Below, one piece after another: positions 5,457 to 12,425 of a DNA stretch of 64,000 nucleotides; position 1 is the stretch's first letter, and each line of letters begins with the position of its first letter. The notes beneath the pieces are model-generated. The model saw only the letters and a list, made by a program, of their open reading frames with translations, did no database searches and had not been told where the DNA came from. The position numbers and the translations under genes are program-made. The stretch is from Cyanobacteriota bacterium (GTDB taxonomy: Bacteria > Cyanobacteriota > Cyanobacteriia > PCC-6307 > Cyanobiaceae), in the NCBI GenBank assembly GCA_026389335.1, contig JAPLIB010000084.1, positions 1 through 64,000 of the forward strand. The letters are read 5' to 3'.

Positions 5457-7709
5457 TCAGCCGCGCAGCAGGCGGTTGGGGAAATACCTCACTTGGGGGT
5501 CAGTGTCTCGCTCAGAGTCGGGGTGAGGATCAGATTCAGCAGCAGGTCCCTGCGCCGCCAGCACCTCCACCCCATGGACGGCCAGCCCTTCGCTACAGCG
5601 CTGGATGAATTCCTGCCGCAAAGCCACCGGCTGTTCGATGCGGATGCCGCCGCCGAACGCAAACAGCCAGTTGCGCAGGTCGATGTCGGCGGCCACCGTC
5701 CAGCGGGGCAGATCGAGCTCCACTGGGTAGGGATGGCTATCGCTTTTGGCGTTGGGTTCGAGCACGTGGGGGGCACCGGGGTGATGCCACCAGCGATCGC
5801 CGCTCAGCGGGCGCGAAAAACGGGTCTGCTCCAGGGGATAGCGGCCGGCACCTTCGCGCAGGAAGGCAAAGGCCCAGGGGGTGCAGGAGAAGCGCAGGGT
5901 CTCCAGCTGGCTGATCCGCAGTTGGGCTGAGGCACTGGCCAGAGCTAACTGAGCCTCGAGATCGTCGCCGAAATAGATGCCGCCCGTGTGGTGTAGCAGT
6001 TTCTCCAGCCGCTGCAGGGCCTTTTGCTGTTGCTCGGGGCTGCGGCGCAAGTCGCTGTCGTGCTGCCGCAGGGCGAGGCGATCGAGACGTTCGCTGCGGA
6101 TCAGTCCCTGCTCCCGGCCGATGGCGTCCTCCTCATAGATGAGGTACCAGCCGATGTTGTGGAAGATCAATTGCAGCGGCCACACCCGCAGCTCGCCATC
6201 GGGGCTGCCGGGGAAGCTGGCGGCGGAGGCATAGCGCTCCAGCCGCACCCGCCGCTGCTCAAAGATCGCCCGCTCGATCGCCTCCGCCCGCTTGGGGGCG
6301 GCGAGACTGTCGGCTCGCACCAGCCCAGCGTCGACAACGGCATGGCGGGCATAGCTGCGCACCGGTGCCTTGGACGCGGTGTCGATACCAGCCCAGGCGA
6401 GGCGCTGGTCGAGCTCCTGCAACAGATCCTGCGCCGAGGGATCCGCCAGGCGGCCGGCCGCCTGCTGCAGCACCGCATGCACCTCCAGCAACCTTGGCGG
6501 CGGCAGCAGGGCTGTGCCCAGGGCGTAGCCATGGCGCACGTTGTCGTGGCGGGAGCGGAAGCCGTAGGGGGTGAGGATCTTCTCGATGTCCTTGCGCAGG
6601 CTGGCACTTTCGCCTGGCAGGTAGGCGCCGGGGATGGTTTCGGTGGCGGCGATCAGGTGCTGGTGCAGGTTGCCGCCTTTGCTGGGGTCCCGATCAAAGG
6701 GGTTCTGCAGCAAGTGGCGCAGCAACGTCATCACTCGCACAAACACCGGCCCATCACCCATCGGCGGGTAGCCGCCATGGACCCCGCCGGCCGCTGGCGG
6801 GCGTAGGCGACGCAAGGGTTGATCGGCGGCTTTCGCCTCGGCCAGTTGAATCGGCGCCGTCACCGCCAGGGCGCTGGTGAAACCGTTGGCTTCCAGCCAG
6901 TCCAGATCACGGCGCAGGGCGTCGACATCGGCGTAGCAATCTCCGTGCAGACGTCGCAGGAATGCAGCGGCTCGATCCGCCAGATCGCCTGACGGCAGCG
7001 GCGATAGCCAGAGCTCCAGCTCCTCCCGGGTGCCGGGATCGTTCGCCTCCAGGCCTGGATAGCGACTGAGCAGGCGAATCAGGAACAGCAGCCGCTCCAG
7101 ATCCAGCAGCCGCGAATAGCCATGCAGCTGCAACTTGTTCTCACGGGCGCGGGCCGAGCGGATGCGTTTGTCGAGAGCAGCCAGTTCGGCCGCCAACACC
7201 GGCGTCAGCTCCTGGTGATGGCTGGGCACCACGGCGCAGATCGCCGCGAATCCTTCCGCTCGGCAGGGCCCGAACTGTGGATCGGCCAGGGCGGCGGCCA
7301 TCTCCTGAATCACCGGTACCGGCACCTGGCGATCGCGGGTGCGGTTCCACTCCAGACAGGTGGGCAGGGGCGTGTAGAGCCACCAGCCGATCCACTCCAC
7401 TGGCGCCGGCAACGGCAAGCCCTGGGTGATCGCCAGCCGCCAGGCCCTTTTGGCATGGGTGGCATCGACGATCACCGGCCGCCCCTCGGCCACGGCTTCC
7501 AGCAAACGCTGCTGCAGCCGCTGCTGAATCTCGGGCCAGGGGCCTTGCACGGCGGCGTCACCGAACACCTCGGCGCGGATCCCATCGGTGGAGAGCACCA
7601 GCGCCGGCAGTTGATCGGGGCCGCTGAGCAGGGGCGCCAGCGCCCAGGCCAGGGTGGTCTTGCCGCTGGCGGGCGGACCGATCAGCAGGTGGCAGCGCAG
7701 CGGAGCCAT
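5457..7709 (-). CDS. P-loop kinase (AAA_33/PNK-like) fused to a WYL-domain regulator
   Basis: ATG at 7709 (MAPLRCHLLIGPPASGKTTLAWAL..). Walker A and VIVDATHAKRAWR kinase motif; C-terminal half has a WYL-like region (RAIFEQRRVRLERY..VWPLQLIFHNIGWYLIYEE). Confidence 0.8.
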   Translation of the reverse strand: MAPLRCHLLIGPPASGKTTLAWALAPLLSGPDQLPALVLSTDGIRAEVFGDAAVQGPWPEIQQRLQQRLLEAVAEGRPVIVDATHAKRAWRLAITQGLPLPAPVEWIGWWLYTPLPTCLEWNRTRDRQVPVPVIQEMAAALADPQFGPCRAEGFAAICAVVPSHHQELTPVLAAELAALDKRIRSARARENKLQLHGYSRLLDLERLLFLIRLLSRYPGLEANDPGTREELELWLSPLPSGDLADRAAAFLRRLHGDCYADVDALRRDLDWLEANGFTSALAVTAPIQLAEAKAADQPLRRLRPPAAGGVHGGYPPMGDGPVFVRVMTLLRHLLQNPFDRDPSKGGNLHQHLIAATETIPGAYLPGESASLRKDIEKILTPYGFRSRHDNVRHGYALGTALLPPPRLLEVHAVLQQAAGRLADPSAQDLLQELDQRLAWAGIDTASKAPVRSYARHAVVDAGLVRADSLAAPKRAEAIERAIFEQRRVRLERYASAASFPGSPDGELRVWPLQLIFHNIGWYLIYEEDAIGREQGLIRSERLDRLALRQHDSDLRRSPEQQQKALQRLEKLLHHTGGIYFGDDLEAQLALASASAQLRISQLETLRFSCTPWAFAFLREGAGRYPLEQTRFSRPLSGDRWWHHPGAPHVLEPNAKSDSHPYPVELDLPRWTVAADIDLRNWLFAFGGGIRIEQPVALRQEFIQRCSEGLAVHGVEVLAAQGPAAESDPHPDSERDTDPQVRYFPNRLLRG

Positions 7710-8432
7710 CGGGGCAGCGGGAGACAGAGGCGTCGGCAGAGCACCTTGATCATCGCAGTCTTTCGCAGGAAAACCCGTGCCGCTAGCGATCGGTGCGTAG
7801 ACGCTGGTTGAACGTTGGATGCAAAGGCAGCGTGGCCGGCTCCAACTCCGTTCAAACCCAGCCTGGATCTGCTGGAGCTCACTGCTAGGCAGCCCAAGGC
7901 GGGTCAACCTCTGGCCCTGTTGCCAACCACACGCTGCCGCTGAATCCTGAGTGGGCGGGTGGAGTAACAGCGGTCAACCGTGGCCGATACAGGTTTTCAA
8001 CGGTTTCTTAGGCCGAAAAACCGGAGTTGCCGGACAGGCCATGGAGGTGGAGGACGGCGCTCGTCGTGGCCGTCTCCCTGAGCGAGGCCGATGCCCCCAT
8101 CAGCCACGCCCTGGCCCGAAGCGCTCTTGCTCGCGATCGATCAGCCCGCGGTTGCAGGCTTCTGTTGGCTTCGCCACCTCAAGCCCCGCTTGACCATGGC
8201 CTGGCGTTGCATGGGTTGGCTGCGGCTGCTCCCCCGGCCTGAGCTGCTTGCAGCCACCCGGCTCCACGCCGAACCGATACTCTGCCCGGGCCCTGCACCG
8301 TCCGCTCTCCACGCTCGCCAGCCATCGCAGCTCAGTTCTGATACCTGCTGAGCGCTCCTGACTGCCCCCGCTGAGATCGACACCCCTGCTCCTCTGGATC
8401 CAGCTCCTTTGGTTGCCCCGTCCCCTGACACC

Positions 8433-10940: not shown

Positions 10941-12425
10941 TCAGGCCGTGCGCGGCAGCACCCCGTCCAATGGATCCACGGGTTCGACAACAAAGGAGAG
11001 CGATTCCACCTCCCGCTCGCTCAAGCGCCGGCACCAGGCACCACGCACCGGTTCATTCCAGCGGAAGCCAGCCTCCTTGGCCCGATGGCGCTCGGCATAG
11101 CCGAGACAGGCGCGATAGAGGCGGCGGGGCTCCAGGGCCAACTGCAGCAGCAGCTCCAGATCGGGCGACCGTTCAAACACCTGAATCAGATAAATGCAAT
11201 CAGTGAGGGCCCGATGGGCGGCCCAGACCGGGATGCCATAGGCCAGGGCCAGATCCCGCACCGACGGGGTGGCCCGCAAGTGGCGCTCAGCGGGCCAGCG
11301 GATGTCCTCCATCGAACAGATCCAGGGTTTGGTCAAGGGCGGCAGGGGGCCGTGACCGAACCACTGGCGATCGAAGCTGACGTTATGGGCGACCACGGCA
11401 TCGGCTGCCGCCACCATGGCCTCGAAACAGGTCAGGCCGGCCTGCCAGGGCTGGTTCAGCCGACTCACCTCAGCGGCGATGCCATTGATCGGTTCCGCCG
11501 GATTGCTGGGGCAGGGCAGTAGGAACGACACCTGCATCAGCACCGCCCGGCTGGGCACATGAAACAGCACGGCCCCCACCTCGATGCATTGCCCCTGGTC
11601 GCGGCTGAGGGCCGTGGTTTCGGTGTCCAGCACCAGCAACCGTTCCGGGCAGCTGGGCAGGGAAAGCCCTGGGGACGCCGCCAGCGGGGTGGGGGCCAGC
11701 ACCGGCACGGTCAGCATCGGCACGGCCAGCATCGCCGCGGAAGGCGATGCGGTAGTTGGTGCGGCTGCGGCTGCGGTCTGGGAGCGGCCCCCACGCCGGG
11801 CTGGGGGCTCAGCTGCCGGCTCCGGGGGCTGAAAAGCGAGGGATAGATCAGGGGCAGGAACGGATTGCAGCGGGCCGCCAGCTCCGCAGCCGCCATCCAG
11901 GGATCTTTGATCCTCGGATCTGTGATCCTCGGATCTGTGATCCACCGCTCCCTGGACCAGGGCCCTGGCTGTCGCTGCCACGGCAGCCAGGGGCTGAGGA
12001 GCGGAAGGCCTGGAGGCCACGGGCGGGGACTCAGCCCGTGCCGACTCCACTGAGGCCGAGGTCACTGGCTTAGGTGGCACGGCTTGGGATGACTCAGCTG
12101 TGGATGGCACGGTGGCGGATCGAAGCGAGGCCGCGGGCTCGGAATCCGCTGCGGTGCTCTCCGGGGAGTCGGTGTCGAGCGCCGGGCGCGCCGGTGGGGG
12201 CAAAGGCTGCGAGGGCAGGTCCTGGGCCGCTGCCGGGCCGGGTGGCGGCGATGGTTCAGCGGCTGGAGGCCGCGGTCGCTCGGCCGCCGGGCCCTGGCCC
12301 TGATCGCTTGCGGGGCTGGCCGCGTCGATCAGGGCCAATAGATCAGGTTGTTCCCAGAAGCTGGCTTGCTCCGCCATGGCCCACCGCTCGACACCTCCCA
12401 TCGTCCCAGCTGACGCAAATGACAA
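10941..12425 (-). CDS. DnaQ-like 3'-5' exonuclease with long Pro/Ala-rich N-terminus
   Basis: LLVLDTETTALSRDQGQCIEVGAV..VVAHNVSFDRQWF..AAHRALTDCIYLIQVF: ExoI/II/III-like motifs. Confidence 0.8.
   Translation of the reverse strand: MSFASAGTMGGVERWAMAEQASFWEQPDLLALIDAASPASDQGQGPAAERPRPPAAEPSPPPGPAAAQDLPSQPLPPPARPALDTDSPESTAADSEPAASLRSATVPSTAESSQAVPPKPVTSASVESARAESPPVASRPSAPQPLAAVAATARALVQGAVDHRSEDHRSEDQRSLDGGCGAGGPLQSVPAPDLSLAFQPPEPAAEPPARRGGRSQTAAAAAPTTASPSAAMLAVPMLTVPVLAPTPLAASPGLSLPSCPERLLVLDTETTALSRDQGQCIEVGAVLFHVPSRAVLMQVSFLLPCPSNPAEPINGIAAEVSRLNQPWQAGLTCFEAMVAAADAVVAHNVSFDRQWFGHGPLPPLTKPWICSMEDIRWPAERHLRATPSVRDLALAYGIPVWAAHRALTDCIYLIQVFERSPDLELLLQLALEPRRLYRACLGYAERHRAKEAGFRWNEPVRGAWCRRLSEREVESLSFVVEPVDPLDGVLPRTA

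Follow-up and report, generated by a model that had tools for sequence, protein, structure and literature searches.

A polynucleotide kinase-type module fused to tandem wHTH-like repeats, WYL and WCX domains in a candidate cyanobacterial regulator of defence genes

How bacteria silence and induce their anti-phage operons is only starting to be understood, through controllers such as CapW/BrxR, CapH+CapP and CapK+CapS. In DriD, PafBC and CapW, binding of single-stranded DNA (ssDNA) to the WYL domain acts as the switch, and the WYL domain of TePif1 is reported to bind the 5′ end of ssDNA (PMC9964779). The enzyme RtcA makes cyclic-phosphate ends that are sensed by the regulator RtcR (PMC7790460). 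The main text of Makarova et al. (2014) lists fusions of WYL domains to enzymes, none of them a kinase, and in the open literature that we searched, neither the kinase–WYL fusion studied here nor its pairing with a LysR-like gene is described.

We analysed a 64,000-nucleotide stretch of cyanobacterial DNA (the window) encoding a polynucleotide kinase (PNK)-type module fused to wHTH-like repeats, a WYL domain and a WCX domain. The protein shares with CapW/BrxR the wHTH–WYL–WCX order, the fold as judged by Foldseek, and diverse defence neighbours (PMC9122588, PMC9122601), but CapW/BrxR has one wHTH and no enzyme domain, whereas the fusion carries a PNK at its N terminus and the wHTH-like unit twice, has a LysR-like partner and is distributed among cyanobacteria. 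Given the kinase and the second repeat, we do not regard it as a plain CapW/BrxR member. The position beside a defence operon that marks CapW/BrxR is found for many relatives of the fusion and not for the copy in the window. DriD and PafBC, the best structural matches to the C-terminal two thirds of the protein, lack a kinase and govern DNA-damage regulons, whereas the fusion is tied to defence cassettes.

Other systems share part of this design. CapK with CapS, an ssDNA-activated kinase and a repressor (PMC13373217), is alike in outline, as a kinase and a DNA-binding regulator of an adjacent exchangeable defence operon; however, its GHKL protein kinase and STAS protein are not homologous to the fusion, in which a P-loop PNK shares its polypeptide with WYL and for which neither Pfam nor NCBIfam gave a GHKL kinase or STAS match. 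RtcR sets a precedent, since the nucleic-acid end that it senses is the product of its partner enzyme (PMC7790460), but it is a CARF-containing AAA+ sigma-54 activator whose enzyme is separately encoded and makes 2′,3′-cyclic phosphate ends. Pif1–WYL helicases join an enzyme to a C-terminal WYL domain that binds the ssDNA 5′ end (PMC9964779), yet they are helicases without a wHTH and are not regulators. Csx3′, a Csx3–kinase/transferase fusion of cyanobacterial type III-B systems, is CRISPR-associated and has a C-terminal kinase-like domain (PMC7371418), partnered by a ring nuclease domain where the fusion has wHTH–WYL. The resemblance to CapH+CapP is functional, that of a controller beside exchangeable immune operons.

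We propose, with confidence evenly divided for and against the proposal as a whole, that the fusion regulates transcription of defence genes and brings with it an enzyme that modifies nucleic-acid ends. If so, it would extend the known controllers to freshwater picocyanobacteria and, elsewhere among cyanobacteria, to type III-B CRISPR, and a nucleic-acid-end enzyme would be built into the sensor itself.

Domains of the fusion protein

The fusion gene (positions 5457..7709, minus strand) is a single unbroken open reading frame of 750 amino acids from an ATG at 7709 to a stop at 5457. An alternative TTG at 7907 would give a longer frame; relatives favour the ATG. A preliminary description of this DNA had placed a kinase–WYL fusion in one protein of about 750 residues at 5457–7709, without giving a strand. 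The coordinates were correct, and the fusion is borne out by the unbroken frame, the Pfam AAA_33 match (E = 1.9e-18), the PADLOC WYL match and Foldseek. An assembly or sequencing error as its origin, raised at the same time, is ruled out by copies in closed plasmids and genomes. From N to C terminus, Pfam, PADLOC, Foldseek and hhalign place a PNK-type kinase, tandem wHTH-like repeats, a WYL domain and a WCX domain. Two AlphaFold2 models reached modest confidence (pLDDT 64.8 and 71.5; pTM 0.41 and 0.48), and structural matches therefore back up the sequence evidence here and do not substitute for it. A single-sequence search against solved structures returned no match for the fusion protein, an Rfam scan of the window returned none, and a tRNA scan of the window's first 20 kb was likewise empty.

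The kinase module (amino acids 1–157; 7239..7709, minus strand) was identified by Pfam, profile search, Foldseek and alignment. Its AAA_33 (PF13671) match scores 67.5 bits against a cut-off of 27. With a profile of 24 relatives, the kinase of the Clostridium thermocellum polynucleotide kinase/phosphatase was the top match (8.5e-18), followed by seryl-tRNA(Sec) kinase, Pnkp1 and T4 polynucleotide kinase; Foldseek with the predicted model also led to the C. thermocellum polynucleotide kinase, the closest solved relative. The Walker A motif GPPASGKT (G11–T18), D42xxR45, D82-A-T-H85 and the lid arginines R125/R127 all align with that enzyme. Walker A, D42/R45 and R125/R127 are conserved except in degenerate paralogues, and catalytic residues are otherwise kept among relatives down to about 30% identity. 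The module is predicted to phosphorylate 5′ ends of nucleic acid.

Two other kinase identities were considered and set aside. Selenocysteine-tRNA kinase, indicated by weak NCBIfam similarity only, was taken as remote P-loop kinship. For a zeta toxin, the Pfam scan gave no PF06414 match in the protein and no epsilon-type partner gene was recognised. A broader version of the latter idea is a stress-activated effector or toxin, whose kinase would modify a small molecule or tRNA in the manner of zeta toxins or CPT, with the WYL domain as sensor. Some relatives do give weak Zeta_toxin and CPT profile matches, Foldseek returns a weak zeta toxin match (E = 0.04), and there is the similarity to PSTK. 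We assign this reading little likelihood: the PNK matches are far stronger, orphan copies stay intact under selection without an antitoxin partner, and wHTH repeats are present.

The middle region, flagged earlier as a place to look for a wHTH, appears to contain it twice, at amino acids 190–308 (6786..7142) and 312–405 (6495..6776), both on the minus strand, with a helical linker leading from the second repeat to the WYL domain. As hhalign profiles, the two repeats match each other with a probability of 96% (E = 2.7e-9), against at most 0.9% for six control pairs taken from other segments. No wHTH HMM matched the middle region; the models show helical repeats there, with a poorly modelled wing, and Foldseek leads to BrxR/CapW.

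The WYL domain (amino acids 472–557; 6039..6296, minus strand) is an Sm-like barrel containing W521, Y522 and L523 and the arginines R538, R541 and R544. Its assignment holds by PADLOC, whose CRISPR-associated WYL model matches the protein at 7.2e-17, and by Foldseek, model and alignment, and falls short in Pfam alone (PF13280, 19.6 bits against a cut-off of 21.8). The WCX domain (amino acids 602–711; 5577..5906, minus strand) also scores below the curated Pfam threshold in this protein (18.6 against 23.9; E = 0.0025); all 24 relatives examined match it at E ≤ 0.1, the strongest at 7.1e-7, and it is backed by a PafC profile match and the model. Barrel strands of the WYL domain and the WCX fold are visible in the AlphaFold2 models, and Foldseek searches with the predicted C-terminal part return PafBC, DriD bound to ssDNA, BrxR and CapW.

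Relatives and their defence neighbourhoods

Among 42 genomes from the genus (Cyanobium / Synechococcus / Vulcanococcus), 38 gave a match to the fusion, often as several paralogues, with up to eight matches per genome when fragments are included. The genome from which the window comes (4.05 Mb) has five, on contigs C50 (the window copy), C35 (75%), C162 (73%, shortened), C58 (38%) and C170 (a fragment). Of 292 genomes sampled across the phylum, 42 have a match at E ≤ 1e-60, full-length and partial together; 33 cyanobacterial genomes outside the genus hold 36 full-length or near-full-length fusions, and the fusion is also present on closed cyanobacterial plasmids. The viral contigs searched held no relative of the fusion, and the sole match in a phage collection was to the kinase module, in Bacillus phages. 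The contig of a 92–93% identical fusion (L031, CALPNT020000229.1) bears the record title Bifidobacterium breve, which evidently reflects wrong assignment of a cyanobacterial bin.

The preliminary description had reported an absence of defence neighbours, which is right for the window copy and wrong for the family. Outside the genus, cmr4 of type III-B CRISPR lies within about 8 kb of 18 of the 36 copies; each genome spans several megabases and has one to three cmr4 genes, so that well under one copy would be expected there by chance. On cyanobacterial plasmids the fusion adjoins type III-B cas10–cmr3–cmr4, and in three surveyed non-genus genomes a reverse-transcriptase gene lies within 1 kb of it.

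On plasmids of PCC 7002 and Geminocystis (L087:7981-12055 and L096:7500-11540), the fusion comes directly after a reverse-transcriptase gene and an unassigned gene of about 270–300 amino acids; this reverse transcriptase is the one lying within 1 kb of the fusion in the three surveyed genomes. Stand-alone versions of the kinase sit within CRISPR-Cas loci (L091:9986-10501, on pSYSA, and L132:9128-9739), so the kinase travels with CRISPR on its own too. In two genomes, the CRISPR islands L111:5914-19670 and L115:10807-19149 hold several more AAA_33-like proteins, of 320–550 amino acids, adjoining cas1/cas2.

Within the genus, the commonest neighbour is a divergent gene of about 300 amino acids, present at 33 independent loci. 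Of 26 members, 17 gave a LysR-type HTH_1 match at E ≤ 0.1 (the strongest at 1e-4; the member shown falls below the cut-off), a LysR substrate-binding domain was matched in one of the 26, and an NtcB match is weak (0.0066); because the LysR-type HTH matches are weak, we call the partner LysR-like. Short 'LysR' matches at the 5′ end of the fusion in many genomes were discounted as artefacts, produced in antisense because the LysR query ORF was too long. Among the 32 loci that have both the fusion and the LysR-like gene with at least 3 kb of sequence downstream, 25 carry a defence module downstream of the LysR-like gene. PADLOC identifies this cargo as DISARM DrmD and DrmMI, Druantia-type DruE, Hhe, HmaA with HmaB, type IIG and type III restriction-modification, Septu PtuA and type I methyltransferase. 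A LysR-like gene lies within 2 kb of 6 of the 18 complete DrmD genes in the genus, far above chance.

LysR-like loci without the fusion also bear defence modules, such as BREX PglZ–BrxD–BrxHI at L160 and type I restriction-modification at L161. The divergent gene at these loci is often an RNase_T-family exonuclease, with other defence modules after the pair (L143:4696-6916, L145:5820-7871, L160:8083-10263 and L161:6267-8417), and these loci may represent an alternative form of this controller. At L107, L108, L142, L143 and L161, the far side carries recurrent cyAbrB (AbrB-like) and thermonuclease-like genes, which are found at 12 and 8 independent loci respectively.

Since its relatives stand beside many anti-virus systems, the fusion probably switches such defences on or off, and we are fairly confident that it regulates defence genes. 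The direction of this regulation may be either activation or repression.

An orphaned copy and its upstream motif

We looked for cas, DISARM and restriction-modification homologues and for an intact LysR partner near the window copy and found none. Upstream of the gene, on the opposite strand (7812..7940, plus strand), lies a probable decayed remnant of the divergent LysR-like partner, seen as a 38-residue profile match (17.6 bits, E = 3.6e-4) and as 40 bp at 82.5% to the corresponding region of the paired loci L047 and L082. In the tree, the window copy is nested among LysR-paired fusions, and its sister L031 (support 99) retains a shortened LysR-like gene. These comparisons indicate that the window copy was probably orphaned by loss of its LysR-like partner. 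An RNase_T-like ORF at 10941–12425 was considered as the LysR-associated exonuclease and had no significant similarity to it; a local III-B link was dropped, as the genome has no cmr2.

With a decayed partner, no defence cargo and other fusion fragments in the same genome, the window copy could be a non-functional leftover of a lost defence island. We hold this to be very improbable. The frame is intact, and dN/dS against six relatives is 0.13–0.26; each domain is under purifying selection (0.11–0.29), none is relaxed, and against the closest relatives the values are about 0.13–0.2 in all domains. The upstream motif is intact as well. The window copy is best read as an orphaned defence-operon controller that is probably still functional.

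This conserved motif, CTGCGAAAGACTG (7756..7768, minus strand), emerged from upstream comparison and a genome scan; it lies roughly 50 bp ahead of the start codon and is probably regulatory. Of 50 regions upstream of fusions, 36 contain its core, [CG]TGCGAAANA, mostly 34–65 bp 5′ of the start codon; among random 160-bp windows the figure is 1.1%. The L053 clade has two copies facing each other, and the older branches L120, L116, L121 and L075 are without the core. The fuller pattern STGCGAAAKASTG has exactly five sites in the genome, none of them away from fusion or LysR-like loci. One precedes the window gene, two are at the fusion/LysR loci C35 and C162, and two are at C64 and C132, which have a LysR-like gene without the fusion. 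The reversed pattern, used as a control, has 0 matches there. Across twelve genomes, 14 of 19 matches fall at fusion or LysR-like loci; the other five lie within predicted coding sequence and were treated as chance. As the motif was derived from fusion upstreams, matches at fusions are circular and common descent adds to its conservation, which leaves the LysR-only loci C64 and C132 as the informative sites.

The motif is perhaps bound by the wHTH part of the fusion; the LysR-like protein could be the binding factor instead. The window copy may act on distant targets, as the preliminary description supposed, since four further sites in the genome carry the exact motif; two of these are LysR-like loci that lack the fusion, and one of the two (C132) is followed by drmD of DISARM. 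The proposal predicts that related controllers govern several defence loci linked by one motif across the genome.

This layout also bears on whether the protein is a nucleic-acid repair or processing enzyme, in which the PNK would heal 5′ ends, the WYL domain would only dock the substrate, and the gene would be carried in defence islands as a remedy for collateral damage. Among solved kinases the C. thermocellum RNA-repair PNK stands nearest, the fusion is followed by methyltransferase and AlkB genes on PCC 7002 plasmids, and WYL–Pif1 helicases provide a precedent. The two wHTH-like repeats and the WYL–WCX order are, however, those of transcription factors, and the divergent LysR-like layout and conserved upstream motif suit regulation; no module for a ligase or phosphatase came to light. 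We consider a repair role unlikely.

Proposed signalling logic

Building on the domains, conservation, defence association, orphaning and motif distribution established computationally, we outline how a defence-gene regulator of this kind could work. The WYL/WCX part would sense nucleic-acid fragments arising from infection or DNA damage, as DriD, PafBC and CapW do with ssDNA. The tandem wHTH part would bind DNA, and its site is perhaps the TGCGAAA motif that precedes both the fusion gene and LysR-like defence loci. Phosphorylation of the fragments' 5′ ends would fall to the PNK module, which would so make or erase the end that WYL reads. In most of the genus, the fusion and the divergent LysR-like protein would jointly control an exchangeable defence operon; the window copy has lost its partner and operon, selection would have preserved it, and its targets may be itself and the motif-bearing loci found elsewhere in the genome.

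The union of a PNK-type kinase with a WYL regulator is supported, and the coupling of nucleic-acid ends to regulation that was suggested at the outset is the most plausible function. Provided that the fusion does regulate defence genes, we lean towards a kinase that acts on the sensed nucleic acid. With the WYL domain of Pif1 reported to bind the ssDNA 5′ end, a predicted 5′-end kinase in the same chain suggests that the protein alters the end it senses, much as RtcA does for RtcR. A more speculative extension, which we advance tentatively, is a single-chain immune controller able to edit the signal it receives. Its PNK would phosphorylate or re-mark 5′ ends of nucleic-acid fragments derived from viruses or damage, and its WYL domain would read those ends and switch exchangeable defence operons, DISARM and type III-B CRISPR among them, both locally and, from orphan copies, in trans. 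This raises the testable question of whether WYL sensors read the chemical state of a 5′ end; our search of the open literature found no test of 5′-phosphate recognition by a WYL transcription factor.

Joint residue loss suggests that the kinase and WYL modules are coupled. In six relatives with damaged kinase residues (L109, L117, L118, L119, L123 and L110), R544 of the WYL domain is gone in all six, against one of 21 relatives with an intact kinase; the losses amount to about two independent events on the tree and are for that reason suggestive. The same paralogues bear on whether the protein is a WYL repressor or activator with the kinase as a mere structural or ATP-sensing appendage, as they are full-length despite their lost catalytic residues. 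Yet R544 has gone with those residues, which elsewhere are conserved to about 30% identity, and we judge an appendage role improbable.

Five of these relatives (L109, L117, L118, L119 and L123) form a divergent paralogue clade that has lost both kinase catalytic residues and WYL arginines (aligned positions 42, 82, 541 and 544). Several of them adjoin a gene for a 439-amino-acid protein of no known family and one for a collagen-like protein that matches phage tail-fibre families.
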